Positions 16,153 through 40,629 of a DNA stretch of 40,629 nucleotides are shown here, in pieces. Within the stretch, counting starts at the first letter, position 1; the number at the start of each line of letters is the position of its first letter. Both the position numbers and the translations under genes were made by a program. Location: positions 1 to 40,629 of the forward strand of contig JADZFU010000007.1 in NCBI GenBank assembly GCA_020854265.1. Reading direction: 5' to 3'. Origin of the DNA: Candidatus Uhrbacteria bacterium (GTDB lineage Bacteria; Patescibacteriota; Patescibacteriia; 2-12-FULL-60-25). The notes under the pieces are model-generated. The model made no database searches. It was not told the DNA's origin and was given only the letters and a program-made list of their open reading frames with translations.

Positions 16153-16860
16153 ATGCGGTTCCTCTGGTACTACGTTTCCAGTGTACCGATCTTGATGGGC
16201 TGCGGCCTCATTCTCGATTTCGATCCCCCTCCTCTTCCGCCTATCATGGATGGCGGTTCCGATCTCGACGCAATGATCAACCCGGCCGACTCCGGCGGAG
16301 ACGGTCTCGATTCATCAATTGCCGATTCTTCGGTAGACGCAATGTCCGTCCTGCGGGATGGAGAAATTCCCGATGGATTCGTCCTCGATGGATCCTTCCG
16401 CGACGGGGATCTGCCTGATGCCGGACGCATCGATGGCTGCGAAGACGAGCTCGGCTTGTGCCTTGAGGTCAGCGAGTTCGCGCCCGATCGCGACGTCCTG
16501 CACTGGCGACACAATGTCGTCTGGACCTTGCCCGGCGGCGCTCTTTTCACCACGGACTGGGCCGCCGAACCGTGCATTGGCGGTCTCCGCCATTTGGGCG
16601 ATGGGCAGACGCAGTGTCTCATCCCAATCCGCGATCCAGGGATGGAGGTGGTCGGCTCGGCCGTTGTCTACGCCTATCCGGTCATGGATGATTTCGTGCC
16701 TTTGTGCACGGATACGACTTGTCCTGGTTTCCCCAGCTCGTTCCGAGTCTGGTACGACACGGTCGAGATCCCGGTCGACGCAGGCATCGGGCTGGCAACG
16801 CTCGAGCGCCGGCCGGATACGCCCTATGGGCTCTTGTTTTGTCTGCGCATCGTTTTGTGA
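16153..16860 (+). CDS. Asp-rich lipoprotein, paralogue of the 17008 gene
   Basis: 235 residues. A signal peptide ends in a lipobox (ILMGC, lipidated Cys about residue 17). Residues 35-95 are an acidic Asp/Gly/Ser/Pro linker with DGGSDLDA, DSGGDGLDSS and DGSFRDGDLPDAG. The C-terminal 130 residues form a folded domain with four or more Cys: CEDELGLCLEV, WRHNVVWTLPGG, EPCIGGLRHLGDGQTQC, VVYAYPVMDDFVPLC and TTCPGF. The same motifs in the same order occur in the next gene. The start at 16153 follows GGAGG (16144-16148). A TACTAT at 16120-16125 is a possible -10, but a TTGACA lies only 14 nt before it. Function is unknown. The acidic linker style resembles myxobacterial and deltaproteobacterial lipoproteins (recalled, not checked). 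Confidence 0.8.
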   Translation: MRFLWYYVSSVPILMGCGLILDFDPPPLPPIMDGGSDLDAMINPADSGGDGLDSSIADSSVDAMSVLRDGEIPDGFVLDGSFRDGDLPDAGRIDGCEDELGLCLEVSEFAPDRDVLHWRHNVVWTLPGGALFTTDWAAEPCIGGLRHLGDGQTQCLIPIRDPGMEVVGSAVVYAYPVMDDFVPLCTDTTCPGFPSSFRVWYDTVEIPVDAGIGLATLERRPDTPYGLLFCLRIVL

Positions 16861-16874
16861 GCGTTCCCCCTGAA

Positions 16875-16900
16875 TCCCTCGTAGAAATACGGGGGATTTT
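16875..16900 (+). terminator. Terminator of the first lipoprotein gene
   Basis: TCCCTCGTA, GAAA tetraloop, TACGGGGGA, TTTT. A 9-bp stem with one G-T pair. Confidence 0.8.
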
Positions 16901-16920
16901 CGCTATATAGAGCCAAACTG

Positions 16921-16949
16921 TTGACAAAACATGTATTTTATGGTAAAAA
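16921..16949 (+). promoter_or_regulatory. Strong promoter of the second lipoprotein gene
   Basis: Perfect TTGACA (16921-16926), 17-nt spacer, TGG-extended TAAAAA (16944-16949). The predicted start near 16956 gives a 52-nt leader. The leader contains a small stem (GGAAGC 16966-16971 with GCTTCC 16985-16990) directly before the AAAGGAGA ribosome binding site. Confidence 0.7.
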
Positions 16950-17007
16950 GAGCTGTTCAGATTTTGGAAGCCGTACCTTCAAAAGCTTCCTGAAAGGAGA
17001 TAGAGAC

Positions 17008-17781
17008 ATGCAACGTTTCCGAGAGGGAGCTCAGTTGGCGGTCTTCGCTTGCTTGGTTCCCATGTTCCTGTCGGGGTGTCTGCTCGATCGTTCCGTCCTC
17101 GGGTGCCCGGTTGGCACCATGAGGGGGGAAGGTGAAGCAGGCTGCATTCCGCAGATCGACGGCGACGTCCCCGATGCCTTCGTTCCCGAGGATGGCAACG
17201 TCCCCGACGCCTTCATGCCGGATACCGACAGCGGTCCGGACATCCCCGACGCCGGTACCGATGCTGCCGTGGATCCCGACGCGGGTTCCGACGCCGGTAC
17301 CGATGCTGCCGTGGATCCCGACGCGGGTTCCGATGCAGGACGTCCCGACGCGGGCGGCTTCAACAGCTGCTCCGACGAGCTCGGTATCTGCCTGCGCTTC
17401 GAGAATGCGGCCGGCAGTCCTTCCGTCACCGGCTGGATGATCAACATCATCTGGACGAGGTCGGCAGCGGCTGGCGGCGGCGTCATCGACACCGGCTGGG
17501 TGTCGGAAACCTGCATGGGCGGGATCAGGCGCGATGGCGCTTTCACGACCGAGTGTCGCTTCAACATGCCGGCTCGCCCGGCCGATGCGACCGCGGATCT
17601 GGCGCTCGTCTACCTCTACCCGGTCTACGCGGGATTCGTTCCCGCATGCTCCTCATCGTCGTGTCCGAACTACCCCGGTGGCTACACCATCTGGAAGGAC
17701 ATGGCGGTGCAGACCCACTCCAGCGAAAGCCGCTCCGGCACCCCTGCCGGGACGCTCTTCGTCCTCAGGACGGCTATCTAG
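17008..17781 (+). CDS. Asp/Ala-rich lipoprotein, paralogue of the 16153 gene
   Basis: 257 residues from ATG 17008, chosen because AAAGGAGA (16993-17000) precedes it. The signal peptide has lipobox LSGC (Cys about residue 24). An acidic linker (about 48-115) carries repeated DVPDAF and DAGTDAAVDPDAGS units. The C-terminal domain parallels the previous gene: CSDELGICLRF, GWMINIIWTRS, ETCMGGIRRDGAFTTEC, LVYLYPVYAGFVPAC and SSCPNYPGG. Two adjacent lipoproteins sharing a Cys-rich domain and varying linkers imply a local duplication. The domain lies at the cell surface and is probably disulfide-bonded; the ligand is unknown. GC content is clearly higher than in the flanking housekeeping genes. Confidence 0.82.
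   Translation: MQRFREGAQLAVFACLVPMFLSGCLLDRSVLGCPVGTMRGEGEAGCIPQIDGDVPDAFVPEDGNVPDAFMPDTDSGPDIPDAGTDAAVDPDAGSDAGTDAAVDPDAGSDAGRPDAGGFNSCSDELGICLRFENAAGSPSVTGWMINIIWTRSAAAGGGVIDTGWVSETCMGGIRRDGAFTTECRFNMPARPADATADLALVYLYPVYAGFVPACSSSSCPNYPGGYTIWKDMAVQTHSSESRSGTPAGTLFVLRTAI
17248..17331 (+). repeat. Two identical 42-nt tandem repeats
   Basis: Units 17248-17289 and 17290-17331 are identical and encode DAGTDAAVDPDAGS twice in frame inside the lipoprotein linker. The lack of synonymous change points to a recent duplication or slippage, so the linker length may vary between strains. Confidence 0.9.
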
Positions 17782-18771: not shown

Positions 18772-19386
18772 ATGGCAATCGACTCCAAACTCGTCATCGA
18801 GCTTCGCAACCGCACCTCGGCCGGCATGGTCGACTGCAAGCAGGCGCTGGAGGAGGCAGGAGGGGACATGGATAAGGCCATCGAAATCCTGAAAAAGAAA
18901 GGTTCGATCAAGGCCGCCAAAAAAGCCGCCGAGCGTACCGCAAGCGAAGGATTGCTCGCGACCTATCTCCACCACAACAAAAAGCTTGCCGCGATTGTCG
19001 AGCTTGCATGTGAAACGGATTTCGTGGCACGCAATGAAGCCTTCATTGCTCTTGCAAACGACCTTGCATTGCAGGTGGCTGCCATGGATCCGATGTATGT
19101 GAGCCCGGAAGCCATCCCGGCTGATGCGGTCGAAAAAAAGAAGCAGGAATTCATGGCGGAAATGGCCGACGACAAGAAGCCGGAAGATATCAAGATGAAA
19201 ATCATCGAAGGCAAGCTGAACAAATGGTATACCGAAGTCTGCCTCACCAAGCAGAATTTCATCAAAGACGATACCAAGGTCATCGAACAGCTGATCTCGG
19301 AGCTCTCGGGAACCATCGGTGAAAAAATCATGGTCACGCGTTTCCAGCGCATGCAAATGGCCGCCCATGCGACTAATGCCTGCTAA
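18772..19386 (+). CDS. tsf: Elongation factor Ts
   Basis: 204 residues, short for EF-Ts (about 200-290 in bacteria); the second core subdomain appears reduced. The N-terminal UBA-like module has LRNRTSAGMVDCKQALEEAGGD, and AIEILKKKGSIKAAKKAAERTASEG follows. ELACETDFVARNEAF is the core that contacts EF-Tu. It catalyses GDP release from EF-Tu. It follows rpsB by 21 nt with no clear SD, so it probably relies on the rpsB transcript. A strong hairpin follows the stop codon after 27 nt. Confidence 0.95.
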   Translation: MAIDSKLVIELRNRTSAGMVDCKQALEEAGGDMDKAIEILKKKGSIKAAKKAAERTASEGLLATYLHHNKKLAAIVELACETDFVARNEAFIALANDLALQVAAMDPMYVSPEAIPADAVEKKKQEFMAEMADDKKPEDIKMKIIEGKLNKWYTEVCLTKQNFIKDDTKVIEQLISELSGTIGEKIMVTRFQRMQMAAHATNAC

Positions 19387-19413: not shown

Positions 19414-19438
19414 AAGGACCTCCCGCAAGGAGGTCCTT
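19414..19438 (+). promoter_or_regulatory. Hairpin that sequesters the SD of the E2-like gene
   Basis: AAGGACCTCC (19414-19423), loop CGCAA, GGAGGTCCTT (19429-19438): a perfect 10-bp stem. Its 3' arm contains GGAGG (19429-19433), the only SD for the ATG at 19444. The stem could also act as the tsf terminator, but the following T-run is poor (TTTC). On a transcript reading through from tsf the SD would be paired. A start inside the hairpin would free it; TTGATC 19390-19395 with TAAGGA 19413-19418 would predict +1 near 19425, but that promoter is weak. Confidence 0.7.
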
Positions 19439-19443
19439 TCAAA

Positions 19444-20736
19444 ATGCACGCTATTCCTCCGCACCTGCTGCCGGAGTCGCGTCGTAAGCCGGTCAAGGCC
19501 GCAATCGACGGCTTCACGAATATTCCGCTCCTGCTCGTCCCCGACAAGCAGGCAGCGGCGCTCGATCGCAAGAAGCTCCGCAAGACGGAAGCGCGCATCG
19601 GAGACCGCATCTATCCGGCGCTGACGCCCCATCTCGGTACCGTTACCTACACGCGCGACGAAGAAGAACATGCCAAGCTCCACTACGAGGAGCAGGAGCT
19701 CCGCAATCACAATCTCGCGTATGTGAAAGACGTGGCCCAGGATCTTTCCCGCTTGACGGGCCTCACCGTCCACCTGCATTCGCCCAAGGCGGTGCGGGTC
19801 GAGCCGCTTCCAGCCAAACCGGACGAGTTCCATGTCATCTTCGGCGCCATACCGACCGGACCGTTTCGCGCGCTCAACGACATCGACAAGGTCTTCGGAC
19901 AGACGCTCGACAATAAGGCATGGTATTTCCGGCGCATCGAGCCGGTGAAGGGTCGGGGTCTCGCTTTGTATGATCCCGAGGATAAAGACAAAAAGTCGAT
20001 TGTCCAAATGGTCAGCCGTACAGGCTATATGCTCATTCCCGTGCTCTCTGTCACTAATCGGGGAGCGGTAGCCAAGATCTTTCGCGGCCTGTTGAATCTC
20101 GTATTCCAAGGTTTGTCGCAAACGGCAAAACACAAAGCGAAGAGGATTTCTTCCTCCCAGACATTCGCGAAGCACCATCTGGCCATCCGAGAGGAGTCGC
20201 ACGACTGGCGTAAGGACAGGATCAAGGAGCAAGAAGTGGCAGCTGAGAAAGCGCTCAAGGATTACCAGAGAGCGCTCGAAGACTTGAGATTTTGGAAGTT
20301 CGTCGATCAAGCCGACTCGGACGAGAATCGCAAAGCGGTTCGCGCTGGATCTGCCAGACAGGACTACGCAAGAATCCGAAACATGGCTGAAGTCGAGCGG
20401 ATCGAATTCGTGGACGAAGGCCTGCATGTTGTCACCCGGGTAATCTCGGCTCAATTCGACGGCAAGTCTTACCGTCTCGGACGGTACGCAATTCGGATCG
20501 CTCGAGATCAATTCTCGCTCTTCTGCACTGAGTCATGCCACCCCAAGGGAATCATCCACCCGCATTATCCCACTGACGGGGTGCCCTGCTGGGGGAATGC
20601 TGGTATTCCGATCACGCGGGCCTACCAGGAAGGCAGGCTCGGCGATTTCGTCGAGCTCGTCATCAAGTGGCTGACGCAGGGCTACGAACCTGCCTTGGCC
20701 GATACCAAGATCGAGGAGTGGCCGCATGCGTCTTAA
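19444..20736 (+). CDS. Putative E2-like (UBC-fold) conjugating protein with long N-terminal region
   Basis: 430 residues. The C-terminal part (about 300-420) has the order expected of a UBC fold. Beta strands (GLHVVTRVISAQF, KSYRLGRYAIRIA, FSLFCTES) lead to HPHYPTDGVPC (372-382), and a long helix (ITRAYQEGRLGDFVELVIKWL) follows. The spacing H-P-x5-G-x2-C equals that of the eukaryotic E2 motif HPN-x4-G-x2-C. C382 is the candidate thioester Cys, and His replaces the Asn of HPN. The N-terminal 1-225 is not recognised; about 235-295 is a charged, coiled-coil-like helix (WRKDRIKEQEVAAEKALKDY). The next genes encode an E1-like protein and a beta-grasp protein, which supports the call. The gene overlaps the E1 gene by 11 nt. 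GC-rich codon use suggests acquisition. Function as a conjugase is inferred. Confidence 0.68.
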   Translation: MHAIPPHLLPESRRKPVKAAIDGFTNIPLLLVPDKQAAALDRKKLRKTEARIGDRIYPALTPHLGTVTYTRDEEEHAKLHYEEQELRNHNLAYVKDVAQDLSRLTGLTVHLHSPKAVRVEPLPAKPDEFHVIFGAIPTGPFRALNDIDKVFGQTLDNKAWYFRRIEPVKGRGLALYDPEDKDKKSIVQMVSRTGYMLIPVLSVTNRGAVAKIFRGLLNLVFQGLSQTAKHKAKRISSSQTFAKHHLAIREESHDWRKDRIKEQEVAAEKALKDYQRALEDLRFWKFVDQADSDENRKAVRAGSARQDYARIRNMAEVERIEFVDEGLHVVTRVISAQFDGKSYRLGRYAIRIARDQFSLFCTESCHPKGIIHPHYPTDGVPCWGNAGIPITRAYQEGRLGDFVELVIKWLTQGYEPALADTKIEEWPHAS

Positions 20737-21385
20737 TTGGTCGCATCAAAAAGCGTTGTTCAACCCGCTTCATGCCAAGCCGGTAACCCTCATCGGTGCC
20801 GGATCGGTCGGAAGCAATATCGCTTTGCTACTCGCGCGGCAGGGGATCGAAGACCTGCTTGTTCTCGATGCTGACGAGGTCGCCTCGCACAATGTGCCGA
20901 TGTCTGCCTATCGTCCTTGTGATGTAGGTCGACCCAAGGTCGAGGCTCTCCATGATCTCGTGCGCGAAGCAACTGCGCTCAAGATCGGCGCTGTCGGTAA
21001 TTGGTATACCGACCAGCCGCTACGCGGTACGGTCATCGCCAGCGTAGATACCATGGATGCGCGTTCTGCGATCTGGAAAACAGTGCGCATGAACCCTGCT
21101 GTCGATATCCTCATCGATACACGGCTCTACGAGCGTTATGGCGAAGTCTACTTCGTACGCCCGTGTCTTCCAGAAGATATGCTGGCGTACGAAGCAAGGC
21201 TCTATCCGCAGGACACGACCGTCAAGCGCACCTGCGGCAATCACGGGATTGCTTTCATGGCGAATCTCGTCGCTTCACTCGCCGTTGCGGGTTTGACTGA
21301 CGCTTGGGCCGGTGATAAGACCGGCTTCGCCAAGCGTCTGTTTCTGGGAGATCCTCCCAGGCTCGAAACGGTCAACGCAACCTAG
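20726..21385 (+). CDS. E1/ThiF-family adenylyltransferase
   Basis: 219 residues, a minimal ThiF/MoeB/E1 adenylation domain. VTLIGAGSVGSNIALLLARQGI (20-41) is the ATP-binding Rossmann motif. VLDADEVASHNVP (46-58) gives the D48/D50 and N56 positions, GRPKVEAL has K71, and SVDTMDARSAIW (106-117) gives the metal-binding Asp and Arg. C147 (VRPC) and C170 (KRTCGNHG) are the candidates for a thioester Cys. The two CxxC zinc pairs of ThiF and MoeB are absent. It would activate the C-terminus of a beta-grasp protein. SD GAGGAG lies inside the upstream gene, and the genes overlap, so expression is coupled. It lacks thiamine or molybdopterin neighbours, so a sulfur-carrier role is less likely than protein conjugation. 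Confidence 0.85.
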   Translation: MRLNWSHQKALFNPLHAKPVTLIGAGSVGSNIALLLARQGIEDLLVLDADEVASHNVPMSAYRPCDVGRPKVEALHDLVREATALKIGAVGNWYTDQPLRGTVIASVDTMDARSAIWKTVRMNPAVDILIDTRLYERYGEVYFVRPCLPEDMLAYEARLYPQDTTVKRTCGNHGIAFMANLVASLAVAGLTDAWAGDKTGFAKRLFLGDPPRLETVNAT

Positions 21386-21393
21386 GAGGCAGC

Positions 21394-21690
21394 ATGTTCG
21401 GAAAGAAGATGTCCATCGTCGTGGAGATGATCCCCACCGAAGGGGAGACGGTCCGCAAGGAGGTCGAGGTGTCCTCGAGCGCAACCGTCGAGGATGCACT
21501 CAAGGCTGCCGGCATCGATCCGAAGAACAAGAACTTCGAGGTCGACCGCAAGGTCGCCAAGCTCGATTCCAAGATCGCCGATCTCCACAGCAAGCCTGTG
21601 GTCACGGCCATCGACAAGAGCGAGCCTCGCCGCAAGTCGCCGCCGCCGAAGCCCCACATCTCGGCCAGCGAGCGCGTCGCCGGCTCATGA
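21394..21690 (+). CDS. Putative ubiquitin-like (beta-grasp) modifier
   Basis: 98 residues. Predicted order is strand (MSIVVEMIP), strand (VRKEVEVSS), helix (ATVEDALKAAGI), then short strands (NFEVDRKVAKLD, KPVVTAID). This is the beta-grasp layout of ThiS, MoaD and ubiquitin, and helix start ATVEDAL followed by FEVD recalls MoaD/ThiS. A basic, Pro-rich tail (75-98) follows and ends Ala-Gly-Ser, not Gly-Gly, so either the tail is trimmed or the chemistry differs. No JAB protease is found nearby. The AGGAGG SD (21384-21389) overlaps the E1 stop codon. The gene closes the operon, which is ended by a strong terminator. The assignment rests on predicted pattern plus operon context. Confidence 0.6.
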   Translation: MFGKKMSIVVEMIPTEGETVRKEVEVSSSATVEDALKAAGIDPKNKNFEVDRKVAKLDSKIADLHSKPVVTAIDKSEPRRKSPPPKPHISASERVAGS

Positions 21691-21693
21691 TCT

Positions 21694-21728
21694 GACACCC
21701 CGTTCCACACGAAGGAACGGGGTGTTTC
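21694..21728 (+). terminator. Terminator of the E2-E1-modifier operon
   Basis: GACACCCCGTTCC and GGAACGGGGTGTTTC form a 12-13 bp stem around ACACGAA. It isolates the operon from gapA. Confidence 0.9.
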
Positions 21729-30764: not shown

Positions 30765-33700
30765 GTGAAATTTTTACACGCATTTATCCGCCCGTTCTTT
30801 TCCGCCATGGGATCGCCCATAGGCCTTTTGGCGTTCATTGCGGTCACAGTTGCATGGATGTCGGCTGTTCTTCCGGCGTCAGCAGCCATCCCAAAAGAAA
30901 TTAACTATCAATCACGTCTCCGCGATGCGAGCTTGAATCCGATTACAACCGCAACGGATATTCAATTCACGATTTATTCTTCGCCGACGCTTGGGACATT
31001 CTCCGATCCTGCCACCGCCGGTGGTCCCTTGCTCTGGAAAGGTGTTTACGATGGATCAACTTGTCCGCAAATCACCCCAGATACAGATGGATACTTTGCT
31101 GTTCAGCTAGGATCATCCTGTGCGGTATTTCCTTCATACATCGACTGGAATCAAACCCTGTATCTTGGCGTCCGTATCGGAACCGATGCCGAAGCAACTC
31201 CTCGCGTTCAGCTTTCCGCGCATCAGTATGCACTCAACTCGGATGCGGTTGATACATTCAGCGCTTCATCCACAGCAGCTTCAGGAACGCTCTTGGCTTT
31301 AGACGCCAATCTCAATTTCAATATCCTTACGGGCGGATTCTTCGGCGGATATTTCAACATGGCCTCCACCACGGCCTCATCCACCATAGCGGGAAACTTT
31401 GAGGTAGCTGGAAATGTCGAATTAGGCGACTCGACCGCTGACCTTATTACCGTAAATGGTCGCTTCAACACCGATTTGATCCCGGCTTTTGATCTCCAAT
31501 ACAGCCTTGGCAATTCCACAAACCGCTGGAATGCCGAGCTTGGCTCGGTAACGGCTACGGCGGTTACGACAACCAATCTTTTTGTCAGCCAACTGACATT
31601 CTCATCCGCAACCGGTGTTTCATTGAATCTGACAGATACGCTTTACATCAATACCATCGCGATAAATGCAACGGGTACAACCTCTACCAACTCTGGTGCG
31701 TGGCTCATCGGCGTGTATGATGAATTCGATTTCTCCAATGCGACCAATGTACAGGATGTTCTAGATGATATTGATGCGCAGATAGCGCTCGCTTCGGCAA
31801 CGGATACGCTCCAAACCGTAACGGCGGCGGGCAATACAACCACCAATGCTATCCAATTCGCCGGAGGAACCTCCACGGGCGTTTTCAACATCACGGGGGT
31901 CGGCACTTCTACCGTCAGTAACAACTTTGAAGTCGAGGGCCATGTTTCGTTCGGTAATTCCGGCCGTATTGATGGAGGAGATATTTTTGCAAGCACACCG
32001 GCCTCGGTAGTCGTAAATGTAGAAGAGCTTTTTACGGGAACTTTGCCCGATTTTACACGCGGCATCACGTCTTTTATCAAGGTGAATGATTCGGGCGTTT
32101 CATCCGCGGCAAGCATTGCGGGTTATGAATCAGAAGCGTCTACGGAGGCAGGTGATACGACAAACTACACAAATTTTTTGACGGGTATCCGTGGTCAGAC
32201 AAACCACTATGGCGATGGGATCTTGAGCAACTCCTATGGCGTGCACGGTCTCAATGGTCTTGCAGGTCCTGGCACCATTACAAATGCCTACGGCGTACTG
32301 GGTCAGAGCTATGCATTCACCGCCGGCACGATGACGAATGCCTACGCGCTCTATGCTCAAGCATTCGACAATACGGGCGGTGCGGCCGTCACCAATAACT
32401 ATGGTCTCTATCTTGAGGACCAGTCCGGCGTCGGTACAAATGCATGGAACTTCTATTCGGACGGCGCAACCGCTCAGAATATCATCGAGGGTATGCTTGG
32501 TATCGGAGTCGCGACGGCAACATCAAAACTCCATGTAAACTCCGGACTTGCGACCATTGTCCCTATTTTTACCATGGGAAATGCCGCTGCCGATGTACAG
32601 CTGTTCAACTCAACGGGTACGCCCGAAGGTTTTGTTACGGGTTCCATGGGTGATTTGGCATTTGATCCGGTGAATGGCCGCCTCTATATCAAGCAAACGG
32701 GGACATCAACCGCTACGGGTTGGGTTCCTTTCGCAACAGGCACCACATCAGAAGTCGACACGCTTCAAACCGTTACAGCCCGCGGCGCAACGACTACGCT
32801 TACAACGTATTTCCAAAACACCTCAACCTTCCGCGACATTGTTCCGGAAACGCATAATACGTATTCGCTCGGCACCACATCAACCCGTTGGAAAGAATTG
32901 TATGCGGTGACCACGTTTGTTGGCTCAAGTACATGGGCCTTGGAACAAGCAACAAATGGTGGTTTCTCGGTCAGAAATACAGGAAATATAAACGATTCCA
33001 TCCGTATCGACTCAGATGGCGATGTTGGTATCGGTACTTCGGAGCAAGGGATGGCTCCGCTCGCACGTTTGCACGTGCTCGGTGGACAAGTTCTCATGGG
33101 TGGAAATCTAGGTGAAGAAATTTTCAACATAGATCCGTCCACAGTTACAGTTTCTATTGGTGATTACAGTGCGTGGAATTCAAATACCTACATCCAAGTT
33201 GATGACGGAAATCAGCGCATCATCATGCCGAATGGTCGTGTTGGTATCGGTACGGCTAATCCGATTTCACGCCTGCATGTTGCAAATCCGCTTTCGACAA
33301 CTTCTGGAAATGCAATTTTGACTCTTGCGAATATTTCCGGTGATTCCCAGTTCTTCAATGTCACATCAAGCCCTGAAAATGCCATCTTCGGTTCCATTGG
33401 CGACGTAGCTATCGATGTCGTAAACGGCGTGATGTACGTAAAAAGCACGGGGACCTTCACCAATGTTGGCTGGATTACGATCGCGACAAGTACAAGCGGC
33501 CAGGCTACATCAACAATTTCGCTAAACGCTGCATACGATGGGGCGAGCGGAAATGGCAGCGGTCGGGTAGTCACCATAGACAGCGGTCCGATTCAACTAA
33601 ACACCAGTCGAGGACTGTCCGGCGGGCTTGATTATTTCCCTTCCGTCCAAATCCAAAGCGTGACGGATACGGCGGGCGGCCTCTCGTTCGGGGTATTTGA

Positions 33701-36700
33701 TTTTGGATCGTCAAGCGGTACGGTTGCTGTATTCGGCCCAGATTTATCAAACTGGACGGCAACCCAAACGGGCTTTATTTCACATACCAAAAATACGAAT
33801 GAATTTTCGATCGGCTTATTGAATTCGGGCGGCAGTCTAGAATTCAGACCGACAGGTGCCATTTTGGATGCTACCGATATAGATCTGAATGGAGATGGGC
33901 AGATCTCGATAACAGGATATGGGACCGATGGTGCGGTGCTGATTTACAATAATTCGACAGCTCCGGAAACCAGCGTACTGCGTTTGGCCAATAATGTTGC
34001 TGCGATGAATCAGTATGTTGGAACTGGCGATCCGGAAGGTGTCGTGTCAGCGACAATCGGATCCATGTTCTACCGCACTGATTCAAGCGGAAGCTCATCC
34101 ACGCAAGTGTATGTAAAAATCGCAGATGGCGGCGGTACGACAGGATGGGTTGCGCTCGCGGATGTTTCATCACTTGGAGTGTCGACAAGCAATACTCTCC
34201 AGACTGCCTATAATGGCGGGAACACCATTCAAACGTCCGGAGTTTCATCTCCAATACACATTCAGGTTCCGGAACCTGCGGCATTCTCAAGCGTGCCTGG
34301 CTTGGTAATCACCTCGACTTCATCAAATCGCGGGCTGACATTTGGGAGAAATAATTTCGGGTCCGACTTTACTTCGTTTGGAATGGCGGAGGACGTCACG
34401 AACCCATCATCAGCCTCCGGCGCATTTGCATTCTACAATCACAATACAAGCCGGTTTGGGTTTTCATTGTTGGGAAATGCCGGGAACTCGGTCGGGACAT
34501 TCTCGCTGAAAAATACGGATAATGGAGATACGTCGGCATTTGAATTGAATAACTCTGCCGATGTCGATTTTCATCGCATCCTCGATTTGGGAAATGTGTA
34601 TGGCAATATCGTCTTCCAAGCATCCACGGGTACGCCGGAAGGAAACTATTCAGGTGACGCGGGAGATGTGTACTTCGACATGGAAGGGAATACCTCGGGC
34701 GGACAGATGTATGTAAAAACAACTTTCGGCGGAAATACTGGCTGGGTAGGTGTTGCCACGGTTGATATGCTCGGATCGATCACGACCTCAACCGAAACGC
34801 TCCAATCCGTGACCAATAACGGAAACACGACAACCAATTCAATGGAGATTATCCGTCAGCTTCCGGAAGCAGACTCAACGCGTGCTCCGTATCTTGTATT
34901 GCGCGATACCACGACGACCGATCAGGGGCTTGTCTTGGCGCGATACAACTCCGGAGGGGGGAGCGATACCAATAGCTTGATCGCATTCACGTCAGATATC
35001 AGCGATCCGAATTCTGCAACGAGCGTTGTTCTTGATTACGGTCACCAGAACAATTATCTTAACATGCAGGTATATGACGGAGGCAGCTTCCAAGCAAGTT
35101 TTGCACTAGGTCAGGTCATGCAATTTACTTCCATGCTTGATCGGGGATTGGGCCCGGACTCTTCAATCTCGATTACGAATTCCGGAAATATCCGTGGATT
35201 CTTGGGCATCAGCAATCCTCAAACGGCAATCGATTTCTTCTTGGCAACGGGCACTCCCGAAGGCAATGAAACAGCAAACTCGGGATCGCTTTGGTTCAAT
35301 CACAATGCAACCTCGGGCGACCACCTCTACATCAAGACAACGGATGGTCCCTCTACCGGCTGGGTCCGTATCGCTACACTGAACGACATTCCTACTTCAA
35401 CCACAGCTTCAACCGATACTCTGCAGTCGGTAACGGCTCGCGGAGCAACCACAACGCTTCAAACATACTTCCAAAACACCTCAACGTTCCGCGATATTAT
35501 CCCGGAGTCTAATCTCGCCTATAACCTCGGTGTTTCAACATCCCGCTGGAATAGTCTTTGGACTGGAACGGCAAATATTGGAACTTCAACCTGGTCGCTT
35601 ACAACCAAAGGTGAAGATCGATTCTCGATCAACTCTATGCCGAACGGAAACGGCACCGAGACCATTTCGATCGCGAATACCACAGGAAATGTGGGTATTA
35701 ATTCCAATGCGCCTACGTCCAAGCTCTTCGTGAATGTCGGTAACGTGGACGGTATTATGGTTCGGACTACGAATTCAGGTTATATAGGCGTGGGCACAAC
35801 CCCATCCACGGAGTGGAGACTTGCAAATAACTTTTTCACTTCAAACCGCTTTGATCTTTTGTACAATGGCGGCTCGGTAATGGCTGTCACAACGGCTGGA
35901 AGTGCCGCATTCGGGACGGCGCCAGTCGCCTCAAATCGTCTCAGCGTAAACGGGGCCGTGGCTATCGGTGGAACCGGCTACTCGGACACTGCAGCGCCAG
36001 CCAACGGTATGATCGTGCAAGGGAATGTAGGCTTTGGAACCTCAGCGCCAGCGACCAAACTTCATGTAGATAGCGGTGCCGCTTCGACAACAGCAATCAT
36101 GACGGCAGGTAATTTGGCAGGGAATTTCCAGTTATTCAATGCTTCAGCATCACCTCAGGGTGCAATTACCGGCTCGGTAGGGGATCTCGTGATCGACTCT
36201 ACCAATGGAAGAATGTACTTCAAAGAAACGGGCGACTCCACCAATACCGGCTGGTCTTTGGTAGCTACTGGCACAACTCCGGTGAATGCATTTGTCCAAA
36301 ACGGCAACTCCTTTGGCGCGACGGCCGTCCTTGGCACGAATGATAACAACTCCTTATCGCTTGAAACCCTGAATCAGGCTCGAGTTACAATTGACAGCGT
36401 CGGTCACGTTTCCATTGCTTCAGCATCGTCAGGTGCTCCGACACTCACGGTAAGTGCTGCCGGTGACAGTAGCGGAATTCGCCTAGCCGGTACGTCAGAC
36501 ACGATTTATCGCCAGCAAGGGGGTGGTACGGACGTATTTACTATTCGTACCGCAGGCGCTGATACCTATTTGAATGCACTTACAGGAAACAATCTTCACT
36601 TAGGCGCAAATGGCGGAACAACCCAGTCGGATTTGGTGATTACGAGCGGAAATATCGTGCAATCTAATCGGGAGTTCCGTGTTGTAAATACGCTTACCGG

Positions 36701-39700
36701 TTCTGGAACTGCTCGCATCGGTCAGCGAATTGCAAGCGCGACGAACTCCGGAAATCAGACCGGCGACACCACGCAGTTGCTTATTGCTCCTGATGATGGG
36801 GGACTGAATTCAACGGGCTTAAATATCGGCCTTGACGTAACTCTCGCATCGCTGTCTGGCGGAACAAATCTCGCGGCACGATTCAATACTGGTACAACAA
36901 ATACGCAGGGAATTCTCACGATTGCTAATGCCGGCGGAGATTTCCAACTGTTCCGAATAGACGCCCTTCCAAATGGAAACACGACCGGATCCATCGGCGA
37001 TATTGCTGTTGACTCTACCAATGGCCGCATCTACCTCAAAGAAACCGGTACAAACACAAACACTGGTTGGGCGGTTGTAGCGACAGGTACAGCCTCTATA
37101 CCAACTTTGCAGCAGGTAACAACCGCAGGAAACACCACCACTCTCCCGATCTACGTTCAAAACACATCTACATTCCGAGATATCATTCCGGAATCGAGTC
37201 TCGCATACAATCTTGGCGTTTCAACGTCCCGCTGGAATAGTCTTTGGACAGGTACGGCGAATATCGGTACTTCAACATGGTCTCTTACGACCAAGGGTGA
37301 TGATCGTTTCACGATTAACAGCAGCTCAGATGGCGGCGGATCAGAGGCATTTACAATTTTGAAAGGTGGAGCAAATGTCGGTATTGGAAACACCAACCCT
37401 ACAAACCGCTTGTCGGTTGGAGATGGGTCGACCAGTATTCAGCGCATCGATGTGAATGGCGGCGTTCAGTCGCTGATCGAATTTAAGGAGGCTGGCGTAA
37501 ACCGTTTCATGCTGGCCAGCAACGATATTTCCGGTGCATTCGGTCTCTATAACTTTGCCGACACCCGCTACAACTTCCTGGTCGGCTCAACGGGCAATGT
37601 TGTATTCGGAGGAGATAATATCAACCCCTTTGTTACGACAGCACGCACACTCACAGTATCAGGTGCTGTTAACCAGCGCGCTATGTTGAACCTCCGTACA
37701 ACGGAAAGCGATAATTCCGGAAATACCAGCATTCTGAACTTCTTGTCCGAAGCAAATACAGGTGCCGCCGACGAGCGTATGGCATCCATCCAGATGATCT
37801 CGACCGGAAACACGGCTAATAATCGGGGTTCGAATATAGAGTTCTATACCAAGCCGGACGGCGGGGCATTGGCTCGCTCAATGACCATCCACTCAGATGG
37901 CCGTGTTTCAATTGGAACGCAGACAGGTTCTTCAGCCTTGAACGTTATCTCATCATCAAGCACGTCATTATCCTTGCTTACATTAAGCAATTCATCTGCT
38001 ACCTCTTCATTCTTTGCTGTTACCACATCTCCAGAAGGTACTATCACTGGTTCAAGAGGTGATATCGCAATCGATTCAACCAATGGTCGCATGTACGTTA
38101 AGGAATCAGGCATTGGAACAAATACGGGTTGGGCAGCAGTAGCAACAGGAACAGTTCCGACAATATCCCTTCAGTCTGCATATAACGGAGGCGGGACGGG
38201 TCTTGGTCGCTTTGTCACGACAACCAGCGGCCTTCCTACAACCTTGATCGCAGGCTCATCTACGGTCGGAGAAACCGTATTACGTTTACAGGACAAGCAG
38301 GGATCGAATGATGTCTTCCTGTTCCAGACGCGTGACAATGATGCCGGACTTGAACTGACAACAATGACGATTTCCGACGGTGATGCAACGAATGTGAACC
38401 GCATCCAACACATCGTTGGCAATGGTTTCTTGAATATCCAAGGAACGAGCAATTCGACTGATGCACGAGCGCTTTCCGTGAACGGCCAATATGGATTGGT
38501 ATTAAGCTCGAATGCAACAGGTCAGGTTCATATTCAGTCAGGACTCGGCACATCTAGTACGCGCGTGAGTCTCGTAACGCCGAATGTTCCTTTCTTCGAA
38601 TTAGCAGATCCGTTTCAGACGGTAGGTATCTACACAACAAACAGCGATCCGAATTTGAGCTTGGGTGCAGCTACCGGTTCGCTAGCCGTCGATTACGCGA
38701 GCGGAGCATTGTATATTCGTGAGGGCGTTGTCTCTACGACCTGGAGCCGTCTCGTTACTGATGGTTCTGCATTCGTTCAAAACGGCAATGCATTCGGAAC
38801 GCTTGCAACGCTTGGTACGACCGATGCGAATGATTTGAGAATTATTACGAATGGCACGGAGGCGCTCCGTATCGAAAGCACGGGTGATGTCGGAATCGGT
38901 CAAGTTGATGCCCGTGCAACCGAATTGGTGAATATTCTTGGAGGTGACACGATCGGAAAGAATGCGTATTTGAAACTCGATGCGGATGACGGATCGGCAG
39001 GCGGGTACGGTGCTGGTATCTATTTGAACTCCGATTACTTGGGCGGTGGCGGAGGTCCATTTATCAATTTCAATGAAAACGGAAACCTTAAAGGTACGAT
39101 TGGTACCGAAACAGGAACCGGTCTTATTTTTACAACCGGCACAAGTACAAGCGAGAGTATCTCTTTAAGGACGAGTTCCACCTTGCGAATGGCAATTAAT
39201 GCTGATGGGAATATTGGGATAGGTACCAGCACGGCTGCATATAAGCTGCATTTGGCTACAGCCGCCGACACGCAGGCCCAATTCTCCACAAACAACTTCT
39301 CCACAATCGCAGGACAGATAGAAGGAGCATGGAATGGGCTTACGAATCCGTTTGTCATCCAAGGACTTGGGACGGCGCATGATATTGCAATTACTCCAGT
39401 AACGAATTCACCGACTGACGGCATTGTAATCACAGCAGCCGGAAATGTCGGAATTGGTGCAACTGGCCCTGGAGAAAAATTCGTCGTGCTAGAAAATAAT
39501 GCGGGAAGTATTCACACGGCATTCTTCGTCAATGATGCGAATTCGACCGCTGCATTTGGAGTCGCTATTCGTGCAGGCTCAAACAGCTCAGCCGGAGCAT
39601 CCATGATGACATTCTTGCGTCCGGACGGTACATCGATCGGCAGCATCTCTCAAAATGCAGCCAATACGGTTGCTTATAATACGACTTCGGACAAACGCTT

Positions 39701-40629
39701 AAAGACCGACCTTGGAAGCGTAGACATCGGCTTGCAAGATGTTCTTGATCTCCAAGTCAGAAAATATGGCTGGATAGATGATACAAGCGGCGAGGTAGAT
39801 TACGGCTTCTTTGCTCAGGAGCTCGGTGAAATATATTCGGATGCGGTTTCCGTTGGATCAGATGAAGTAAATGAGCAGGGCAAGTTGAAAAAGCCATGGG
39901 CCGTAGATTACGGTCGCATGACTCCGCTCTTAGTCAAAGCGATCCAGGATCAGAACGGACTAATTGTTGATCTTCAGAACCGTATTCCAACAAGCACGGG
40001 AACCGCTACAGTCTCCAGCGCTCAAGAAGCTCCAGAGATCTTCGTATCGACCACGACCTTTGAAGGCTCGATCATCGTCAAAGATCACGTCTCCTTCGGA
40101 CGCGACACCGTGGGTCAAGCAAAAATGCTTCCCGGAGCAACTCTGATGCGCGTTGTCTTCGAACGTCCATATGAGAAGCAGCCTATTGTCACGATCACTC
40201 CGATCGGACTCAATGCTATTGACTACGGTGTAGAAAATGTAACCGTCGAAGGATTTGATATCGCCATGCGGCCGGAGCAGACCGTGCCCATCCTGTTCAA
40301 CTGGATCGCCTTTGGCGCCGAGGAGGGGATTATCTCGATTTCCGATGGGACAACTTCTACCATCGACATTGTGGTTGGAGGCCCAATCCTACCTGACCTG
40401 ACTCCTGACACGGGAATCGAACCGCCGCCAGAATTCCCTCCGCTTCCTCTTATCGATGAGCCGGCAGCGAGCAGCACCGAGCCAGTCCCAGAGCCTGAAC
40501 CTGCACCTGCACCAGAGCCAGCGCCAACACCAGAGCCTGTACCGGAACCGACTCCCGAGCCTGCTCCAGTACCTGAGCAAGAGCCAGCGCCAACACCAGA
40601 GCCTGTACCGGAACCGAATCCCGAGCCTG
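30765..40629 (+). CDS. Giant surface fibre with internal Peptidase S74 chaperone domain (partial, runs off the window)
   Basis: An open frame of 3288 codons without stop, truncated by the window edge. GTG start; signal peptide to about residue 41 (LPASAA). An N-terminal beta domain (IPKEINYQSRLRDASLNP...LYLGVRIGTDAEATPRVQLSAHQYALNSDAV) is of the kind found before tail-fibre proteins. Then come about nine copies of a module like GTPEGxxTGSxGDLAxDxxNGRxYxKxTG...TGWxxxAT (nt about 32610, 33370, 34035, 34630, 35250, 36150, 36970, 38030, 38645). These alternate with QNTSTFRDIxPExxxxYxLGxSTSRW blocks. TSDKRLKTDL at about 2974-2983 opens a Peptidase_S74 domain, with Ser and Lys spaced as in the autocleaving dyad, and it continues to about 3070. 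Unusually a further beta domain (about 3090-3205) and a Pro/Glu-rich tail follow. Probably a trimeric host-attachment fibre. Confidence 0.9.
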   Translation, partial: MKFLHAFIRPFFSAMGSPIGLLAFIAVTVAWMSAVLPASAAIPKEINYQSRLRDASLNPITTATDIQFTIYSSPTLGTFSDPATAGGPLLWKGVYDGSTCPQITPDTDGYFAVQLGSSCAVFPSYIDWNQTLYLGVRIGTDAEATPRVQLSAHQYALNSDAVDTFSASSTAASGTLLALDANLNFNILTGGFFGGYFNMASTTASSTIAGNFEVAGNVELGDSTADLITVNGRFNTDLIPAFDLQYSLGNSTNRWNAELGSVTATAVTTTNLFVSQLTFSSATGVSLNLTDTLYINTIAINATGTTSTNSGAWLIGVYDEFDFSNATNVQDVLDDIDAQIALASATDTLQTVTAAGNTTTNAIQFAGGTSTGVFNITGVGTSTVSNNFEVEGHVSFGNSGRIDGGDIFASTPASVVVNVEELFTGTLPDFTRGITSFIKVNDSGVSSAASIAGYESEASTEAGDTTNYTNFLTGIRGQTNHYGDGILSNSYGVHGLNGLAGPGTITNAYGVLGQSYAFTAGTMTNAYALYAQAFDNTGGAAVTNNYGLYLEDQSGVGTNAWNFYSDGATAQNIIEGMLGIGVATATSKLHVNSGLATIVPIFTMGNAAADVQLFNSTGTPEGFVTGSMGDLAFDPVNGRLYIKQTGTSTATGWVPFATGTTSEVDTLQTVTARGATTTLTTYFQNTSTFRDIVPETHNTYSLGTTSTRWKELYAVTTFVGSSTWALEQATNGGFSVRNTGNINDSIRIDSDGDVGIGTSEQGMAPLARLHVLGGQVLMGGNLGEEIFNIDPSTVTVSIGDYSAWNSNTYIQVDDGNQRIIMPNGRVGIGTANPISRLHVANPLSTTSGNAILTLANISGDSQFFNVTSSPENAIFGSIGDVAIDVVNGVMYVKSTGTFTNVGWITIATSTSGQATSTISLNAAYDGASGNGSGRVVTIDSGPIQLNTSRGLSGGLDYFPSVQIQSVTDTAGGLSFGVFDFGSSSGTVAVFGPDLSNWTATQTGFISHTKNTNEFSIGLLNSGGSLEFRPTGAILDATDIDLNGDGQISITGYGTDGAVLIYNNSTAPETSVLRLANNVAAMNQYVGTGDPEGVVSATIGSMFYRTDSSGSSSTQVYVKIADGGGTTGWVALADVSSLGVSTSNTLQTAYNGGNTIQTSGVSSPIHIQVPEPAAFSSVPGLVITSTSSNRGLTFGRNNFGSDFTSFGMAEDVTNPSSASGAFAFYNHNTSRFGFSLLGNAGNSVGTFSLKNTDNGDTSAFELNNSADVDFHRILDLGNVYGNIVFQASTGTPEGNYSGDAGDVYFDMEGNTSGGQMYVKTTFGGNTGWVGVATVDMLGSITTSTETLQSVTNNGNTTTNSMEIIRQLPEADSTRAPYLVLRDTTTTDQGLVLARYNSGGGSDTNSLIAFTSDISDPNSATSVVLDYGHQNNYLNMQVYDGGSFQASFALGQVMQFTSMLDRGLGPDSSISITNSGNIRGFLGISNPQTAIDFFLATGTPEGNETANSGSLWFNHNATSGDHLYIKTTDGPSTGWVRIATLNDIPTSTTASTDTLQSVTARGATTTLQTYFQNTSTFRDIIPESNLAYNLGVSTSRWNSLWTGTANIGTSTWSLTTKGEDRFSINSMPNGNGTETISIANTTGNVGINSNAPTSKLFVNVGNVDGIMVRTTNSGYIGVGTTPSTEWRLANNFFTSNRFDLLYNGGSVMAVTTAGSAAFGTAPVASNRLSVNGAVAIGGTGYSDTAAPANGMIVQGNVGFGTSAPATKLHVDSGAASTTAIMTAGNLAGNFQLFNASASPQGAITGSVGDLVIDSTNGRMYFKETGDSTNTGWSLVATGTTPVNAFVQNGNSFGATAVLGTNDNNSLSLETLNQARVTIDSVGHVSIASASSGAPTLTVSAAGDSSGIRLAGTSDTIYRQQGGGTDVFTIRTAGADTYLNALTGNNLHLGANGGTTQSDLVITSGNIVQSNREFRVVNTLTGSGTARIGQRIASATNSGNQTGDTTQLLIAPDDGGLNSTGLNIGLDVTLASLSGGTNLAARFNTGTTNTQGILTIANAGGDFQLFRIDALPNGNTTGSIGDIAVDSTNGRIYLKETGTNTNTGWAVVATGTASIPTLQQVTTAGNTTTLPIYVQNTSTFRDIIPESSLAYNLGVSTSRWNSLWTGTANIGTSTWSLTTKGDDRFTINSSSDGGGSEAFTILKGGANVGIGNTNPTNRLSVGDGSTSIQRIDVNGGVQSLIEFKEAGVNRFMLASNDISGAFGLYNFADTRYNFLVGSTGNVVFGGDNINPFVTTARTLTVSGAVNQRAMLNLRTTESDNSGNTSILNFLSEANTGAADERMASIQMISTGNTANNRGSNIEFYTKPDGGALARSMTIHSDGRVSIGTQTGSSALNVISSSSTSLSLLTLSNSSATSSFFAVTTSPEGTITGSRGDIAIDSTNGRMYVKESGIGTNTGWAAVATGTVPTISLQSAYNGGGTGLGRFVTTTSGLPTTLIAGSSTVGETVLRLQDKQGSNDVFLFQTRDNDAGLELTTMTISDGDATNVNRIQHIVGNGFLNIQGTSNSTDARALSVNGQYGLVLSSNATGQVHIQSGLGTSSTRVSLVTPNVPFFELADPFQTVGIYTTNSDPNLSLGAATGSLAVDYASGALYIREGVVSTTWSRLVTDGSAFVQNGNAFGTLATLGTTDANDLRIITNGTEALRIESTGDVGIGQVDARATELVNILGGDTIGKNAYLKLDADDGSAGGYGAGIYLNSDYLGGGGGPFINFNENGNLKGTIGTETGTGLIFTTGTSTSESISLRTSSTLRMAINADGNIGIGTSTAAYKLHLATAADTQAQFSTNNFSTIAGQIEGAWNGLTNPFVIQGLGTAHDIAITPVTNSPTDGIVITAAGNVGIGATGPGEKFVVLENNAGSIHTAFFVNDANSTAAFGVAIRAGSNSSAGASMMTFLRPDGTSIGSISQNAANTVAYNTTSDKRLKTDLGSVDIGLQDVLDLQVRKYGWIDDTSGEVDYGFFAQELGEIYSDAVSVGSDEVNEQGKLKKPWAVDYGRMTPLLVKAIQDQNGLIVDLQNRIPTSTGTATVSSAQEAPEIFVSTTTFEGSIIVKDHVSFGRDTVGQAKMLPGATLMRVVFERPYEKQPIVTITPIGLNAIDYGVENVTVEGFDIAMRPEQTVPILFNWIAFGAEEGIISISDGTTSTIDIVVGGPILPDLTPDTGIEPPPEFPPLPLIDEPAASSTEPVPEPEPAPAPEPAPTPEPVPEPTPEPAPVPEQEPAPTPEPVPEPNPEP
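35395..35640 (+). repeat. Fibre module copy, matching 37080-37325
   Basis: This segment encodes LQSVTARGATTTLQTYFQNT followed by the STSRWNSLWTGTANIGTSTW block. A second copy at 37080-37325 encodes almost the same residues with many synonymous differences, and a weaker copy begins at about 32760. Conserved protein over diverged DNA shows selection on the module rather than recent copying. Confidence 0.75.
40514..40629 (+). repeat. 66-nt-period direct repeat in the Pro/Glu tail
   Basis: 40514-40563 and 40580-40629 match over 50 nt with one difference (C40552 versus A40618). They encode EPAPTPEPVPEPTPEP-like tails in frame. The near identity indicates a recent expansion; the repeat may continue beyond the window. 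Confidence 0.85.

Follow-up and report, generated by a model that had tools for sequence, protein, structure and literature searches.

The three genes that lie between tsf and gap in the 1.0-Mb genome of a Candidatus Uhrbacteria bacterium raise the question of whether they constitute a complete ubiquitin-like conjugation system and, if so, how such a system would operate with a modifier ending in Ala-Gly-Ser and with no JAB protease encoded beside it. The window analyzed here is the whole 40,629-nucleotide stretch that makes up contig C7 of that genome. We propose, with a probability of about 0.8, that the three genes are a functional and self-contained E1-E2-ubiquitin-like (Ubl) conjugation cassette with predicted catalytic activity.

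Organization of the cassette and its insertion between tsf and gap

Three plus-strand open reading frames, overlapping or abutting as the earlier note had described them, occupy the interval between tsf (18772-19386) and the start of gap (21755). They and the associated expression signals are as follows.

19444-20736, plus strand: E2-like gene, 430 aa
20726-21385, plus strand: E1-like gene, 219 aa
21394-21690, plus strand: beta-grasp modifier gene, 98 aa, ending in ERVAGS
19414-19438, plus strand: hairpin with the Shine-Dalgarno AAGGAGG of the E2 gene in its 3' arm (RNA fold)
21694-21726, plus strand: strong intrinsic terminator between the modifier gene and the nearby start of gap (terminator scan)

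The E2 and E1 genes overlap by 11 nt, and each of the three genes is preceded by a Shine-Dalgarno-like sequence. The suggestion that a hairpin and a terminator bound the operon holds at its downstream end, where the terminator is real, and fails at its upstream end, where only the minus strand gives the hairpin a terminator-like score. Since this upstream element folds on the plus strand (-19.2 kcal/mol, z -4.1, RNA fold) and carries the Shine-Dalgarno sequence in its 3' arm, it looks more like a structure that sequesters the ribosome-binding site than an operon boundary. No plus-strand promoter-like site was detected in the scanned region; hence, the genes could be expressed by read-through from the rpsB-tsf unit. 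An Rfam search returned no matches.

In the genus-mate G456, whose tsf is 86% identical, and in G072, gap directly follows tsf with a spacing of less than about 85 bp, and the cassette is therefore an insertion. The profile of the E2-like protein detects members in only 1 of the 41 genomes of the window's own family, in 4/10 and 9/43 genomes of two other families, and in 3 of 380 genomes sampled across the phylum. This patchy occurrence, together with the adjacency of tsf and gap in relatives, indicates that the cassette was probably gained horizontally. Its GC content (0.56-0.59) is slightly above that of the flanks and is not decisive for transfer; no long repeats were found flanking the insertion, and no phage genes flank the cassette. 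As had been observed from the sequence, its neighborhood is devoid of thiamine or molybdopterin genes, and there is no defense gene or effector among its neighbors. Elsewhere in the window, two adjoining lipoprotein-like genes rich in Asp, Ala, and Gly are found at 16153-17781, the second with a 42-nt tandem repeat (17246-17333), and a giant open reading frame of at least 3288 aa (30765-40628) runs off the contig end.

An E2-like protein outside the searched family libraries

The product of the first gene combines a C-terminal domain resembling E2 enzymes with a distinct N-terminal region.

19444-20736, plus strand: domains of the E2-like protein, namely, an N-terminal alpha/beta module, a helical/coiled-coil linker, and a C-terminal UBC-like domain at about residues 290-430
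20290-20733, plus strand: UBC-like domain as modeled, residues 283-430 (AF2 pLDDT 89, pTM 0.84)
20557-20589, plus strand: E2 active-site motif HPHYPTDGVPC, residues 372-382, with predicted catalytic Cys382 (sequence, profile alignment to UBE2L3)

The motif HPHYPTDGVPC is present at residues 372-382, where it had first been recognized, and the AF2 model of residues 283-430 is a confident UBC-like model around Cys382 in which the order of the elements is E2-like. A model of the relative L032 contains the same domain. When a profile of 25 UBC domains of the family was compared with all of the PDB, human UBE2L3 came first (E 0.009), most of the matches were E2 enzymes, and the family's HPHv..dGkpC was aligned exactly on HPNIDEKGQVC of UBE2L3, that is, HPH..C on HPN..C. 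Structural comparison points the same way, with UBC and RWD domains filling most of the VIA-align list; its Z scores (best 6.4 over 108 residues at rmsd 4.3, typically 5-6 over 105-120 residues) all lie below 8, the range of chance resemblance if taken alone. Foldseek alone returned nothing significant (best E 0.14). In the predicted E2 assignment, the profile and the motif thus carry the weight, and the modeled topology is supportive. The protein has no match to any Pfam, NCBIfam, PHROGs, or PADLOC model, and none of the 25 family members matches the Pfam E2 models (Prok-E2, UBC) at E <= 5.

The HP..C residues are also kept in homologs that were found through their E1 alone, in which the adjoining E2 is of the same family and carries [HAG]-P-H-x(7)-C-x-G-[NT] or a motif near it. 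The two exceptions are paralogs: L042 has an extra copy with APNV..GQAY, and L035 has one with HPLIRNGIPF. They look like catalytically dead E2 copies, comparable to inactive UEV-type partners. Both loci encode several E2 paralogs in a row, some of which lack the catalytic Cys.

In the N-terminal part of the protein, long helices come after an alpha/beta module. The structural matches of this module are glycosidase domains with Z of about 6.5, within the chance range, and in L037 and L042 the module is repeated inside one protein. We considered the module as a replacement protease and rejected this, as its invariant residues (P, G, R, Q, and Y) form no catalytic set and related modules also recur in relatives that encode JAB.

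The E1-like protein and the beta-grasp modifier

The second and third genes encode the other two components expected of a conjugation pathway.

20726-21385, plus strand: E1-like single-domain adenylating enzyme whose predicted catalytic residue, Cys170, is part of an altered motif, CGNHG (PF00899, E 1.5e-14)
21394-21690, plus strand: beta-grasp ubiquitin-like modifier, 98 aa, ending in Ala-Gly-Ser (family profile matches)

The PF00899 match places the E1-like protein in the ThiF family, all curated equivalog models falling far below their cut-offs, and ThiF is also its nearest relative in the PDB (E 4e-13). No other ThiF-family protein in the window's genome scores over the cut-off. All the main E1 adenylation motifs that the earlier note had listed are present, namely, GAGSVG (24-29), D48/D50/N56, K71, and SVDTMDAR. 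The protein also has Cys170, and G24, G26, D48, D50, N56, K71, R113, R133, and C170 are each invariant in all 60 of the aligned E1 relatives.

The modifier on its own yields only sub-threshold matches (RnfH, ThiS, and SAMP2). A profile of its family retrieves ThiS-like PF1061 (E 2.5e-4) and SAMP2 (E 3.4e-4) from the PDB; these matches bear out the beta-grasp pattern first read from the third gene and support its prediction as a beta-grasp Ubl. Together with the UBC-like model around Cys382 and the HP..C residues kept in homologs, they run counter to each of the outcomes that the earlier note had named as refuting its reading.

A wider E2-JAB-E1-Ubl family

Direct peptide-pattern searches of genome and viral collections with the window's E2 and E1 gave no matches because the window is a divergent member of its family, for which profile and motif searches are needed. 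Scanning one genome from each species for the DNA motif recovered 32 loci, nearly all with an E1 adjoining the E2, and a viral scan recovered a further 16, most with an E1; as such scans select for the motif, motif counts in them are not independent evidence of conservation. The hosts in the former are metagenome-assembled genomes (MAGs) named Uhrbacteria, Buchananbacteria, and Kaiserbacteria, along with many from Myxococcales. A neighborhood search in other Patescibacteria, which the earlier note had recommended, thus finds E2 relatives beside the same E1 there, and also in Myxococcales MAGs and phage contigs. As both families lie side by side in dozens of loci, their co-occurrence is far beyond chance. 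The window belongs to the same assemblage: its E2 and E1 are members of these families and adjoin each other, and its E1 falls in one tree with the others. The earlier suggestion of an undescribed system applies only with respect to the searched family libraries and papers, and it needs amending in that the cassette forms a single branch, devoid of JAB, within a much larger E2-JAB-E1-Ubl family of Myxococcales, phages, and other Patescibacteria.

In Myxococcales, the layout is Ubl-E2-JAB-E1 wherever the whole set is visible, and a single MAG can have up to four such operons (L074, L080-L082, L084, and L090-L105). At L074, the one Myxococcales locus scanned downstream, genes for a DUF6908 protein, a Rad52-family protein, and a PD-(D/E)XK nuclease follow, suggesting a mobile or phage-derived element. 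Flavobacterium and crAss-like phages also possess related E1 and JAB genes. In Flavobacterium phage FpV4 (L072) and the crAss-like cr126_1 (L073), genes labeled “thiamine biosynthesis ThiF” are E1 relatives beside a JAMM protease, and the thiamine annotation is probably wrong. Another viral contig (L109:7915-13221) carries three different E2-like genes of the family near one E1 and a JAB.

A JAB-less clade with a fixed Gly-Ser end

In nearly all relatives, a JAB gene is present whose product shows the complete JAMM signature (E, HxH, S, and D invariant). The operons that lack it and have a Gly-Ser modifier, 10 loci including the window, fall in a single E1 clade with support of 100/100. The absence of a JAB protease first noticed in the window is real and is a feature of this clade: there is none in the window's operon and none in its genome by PF14464 or by the family JAB profile. 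The latter profile likewise detects no JAB in any of the eight whole genomes whose sole known operon is JAB-less (seven of the Gly-Ser clade, the window's included, and the L039 genome), and it found a JAB in all four control genomes. One genome, G406, has both a JAB-less Gly-Ser operon (L032) and a JAB-containing Gly-Gly operon (L047); hence, a JAB could act in trans there.

The unusual end of the modifier is also conserved. In 10/10 loci of the clade it is exactly Gly-Ser with nothing beyond (RPQGS in most), whereas in JAB-containing operons it is mostly Gly-Gly followed by 0-4 variable residues (e.g., GGAR, GGSK, GGM, and GGAHHA). The E1 differs as well: position 60 is Ser in all 10 clade members versus Gln in 46 of 48 others, and the catalytic Cys is followed by G-x-H in all 10 versus T/S-x-R/K in most others. 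In canonical E1s, the catalytic cysteine is marked by the signature C-T-x-R/K. Two loci separate these features. L035 has a JAB and a canonical E1, yet its modifier ends in AGS; L039 is JAB-less with a modifier ending in GG, and it lies elsewhere in the E1 tree than the Gly-Ser clade. The Gly-Ser end and the absence of JAB arose once and count as one event, so that their association is suggestive rather than a statistic; a Fisher test of the two gives p 6e-8, which is not a valid probability since the loci share that event.

Proposed mechanism

We propose that the modifier, once bound with ATP by the E1, would be adenylated at its C terminus and then captured as a thioester on Cys170, from which it would be handed to Cys382 of the E2. 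The UBC-like domain would transfer it to a target chosen either by the N-terminal module of the E2 or by the modifier itself, no E3 being encoded. In the wider family, which we take as ancestral, trimming of the modifier to Gly-Gly is probably the task of the JAMM protease, which can also take the modifier off. In the Gly-Ser clade, the missing JAB and the fixed Ser go together with a changed E1 active site, and this is most simply read to mean that the modifier would be activated with its Ser untrimmed and would not be taken off again; with the loss of JAB, conjugates would not be actively reversed. We advance this version, in which a remodeled E1 activates and conjugates the modifier via its C-terminal Ser for irreversible tagging, only tentatively. 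Such activation would be unusual because putting Ser in place of the C-terminal Gly eliminated both Cap2 thioester formation and conjugation in CBASS (PMC10097602).

That same result, along with the activation of Gly by canonical E1-E2 systems and the invariant Gly just before the Ser, lends itself to another explanation, namely, that a housekeeping carboxypeptidase or other protease unrelated to JAB trims the final Ser and that the pathway is otherwise a conventional Gly-ended one. One would expect a residue destined for removal to vary, which is what the JAB operons show, whereas this Ser is fixed in 10/10 loci; furthermore, it is on this branch that the E1 active-site motifs were altered, and the genome search found no JAB-family protease. 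Balancing these points, we hold the removal of the Ser about level with its direct activation, each being a serious contender that falls somewhat short of an even chance.

Possible biological role

For conjugation by either route, the gene content and the patchiness make a Bil-like role, the tagging of phage or foreign proteins with no separate effector, the best-supported guess from comparative analysis, at a little under even odds. A somewhat less favored possibility, which competes with this role and not with the biochemistry, is that a phage- or mobile-element-derived module has been kept for a non-defense function, such as modifying host translation or replication proteins. The relatives in phages and phage contigs, where a role beneficial to the phage is possible, the Rad52 and PD-(D/E)XK genes carried by L074, and the solitary position of the window's cassette between tsf and gap would fit such a function. 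However, no phage genes lie on either side of the cassette, its presence in a single one of 41 family genomes resembles that of defense cassettes, and Bil and related bacterial Ubl operons are mainly directed at phage defense (PMC12687455). A sulfur-carrier pathway, in which the E1 adenylates a ThiS/MoaD-like protein that then becomes a thiocarboxylate and the E2-like protein has some other function, would suit the ThiF and PF1061 affinities of the E1 and modifier but is very improbable given the UBC-like domain with its conserved predicted catalytic Cys beside the E1 throughout, the lack of thiamine or molybdopterin genes nearby, the JAMM protease of most relatives, and a Gly-Ser end that is not a sulfur-carrier tail.

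If the conjugation reading is correct, there is an E2 family outside current models that has the classical HPx...C motif and is closest by profile to eukaryotic E2s, and its presence in small-genome bacteria, Myxococcales, and phages would bear on the origin of eukaryotic ubiquitination. The Gly-Ser branch without a protease would allow the need for a terminal Gly in a Ubl to be tested cleanly, and it would show what a conjugation system does in a cell of about one megabase of DNA when no enzyme is dedicated to removal. The way in which ubiquitin-like tags are attached here may turn out to be chemically new, and G406 would be useful for studying cross-talk between the JAB-less and JAB-containing operons.

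Comparison with known systems

In its predicted general chemistry, the cassette resembles Bil, Bub, and Cap2, but the features tested exclude it from Bil, Bub, type II CBASS, and Iyer class 6d as those systems are described. Measured against the searched family libraries and literature, the E2 family is a putatively new one.

Like Bil (BilABCD), the cassette encodes its Ubl, E2, and E1 in separate genes, lacks a distinct effector, and is patchily distributed in bacteria. Bil encodes a JAB (BilC) and a two-domain Ubl; its E2 bears a CEHH motif, and its E1 combines tandem adenylation domains with a Cys domain (PMC11354881). In contrast, the window has no JAB, a single beta-grasp domain, an E2 motif of the HPx8C type as in eukaryotic E2s instead of CEHH (HPHYPTDGVPCWGN), and an E1 of 219 aa in place of the tandem-domain form with its Cys domain. 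Bub likewise unites a Ubl, an E2-like protein, and an E1 in a single operon. However, its solved E1 chain, BubCD from Citrobacter (PDB 9ea4), is 458 aa long, whereas the window's E1 is a separate single-domain gene of 219 aa that matches 9ea4 distantly (E 9e-7, against 4e-13 for ThiF).

With type II CBASS Cap2/Cap3 (Iyer class 6b), the cassette has in common the general E1 and E2 chemistry. Cap2 fuses the E2 and E1, and the modifier is a CD-NTase ending in Gly or Ala (PMC10097602); in the window, E2 and E1 are separate, no CD-NTase or effector is present, and the neighbors are tsf and gap. Iyer classes 6d and 6e are also operons with a Ubl, an E1, and an E2-like protein, with or without a JAB. 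Class 6d has a JAB protease gene and an E2 that lacks a His upstream of the Cys, and 6e has an inactive E2/RWD domain, usually with a JAB-E1 fusion (PMC1779556). Unlike 6d, the window's E2 has HP upstream of the Cys, and there is no JAB gene.

The JAB-containing relatives, including the Ubl-E2-JAB-E1 operons of Myxococcales and those of Buchananbacteria and phage contigs, have the same E2 and E1 families as the window. They differ from it in possessing a JAMM protease, modifiers that mostly end in GG plus an extension, and E1s that mostly retain the canonical C-T/S-x-R/K.
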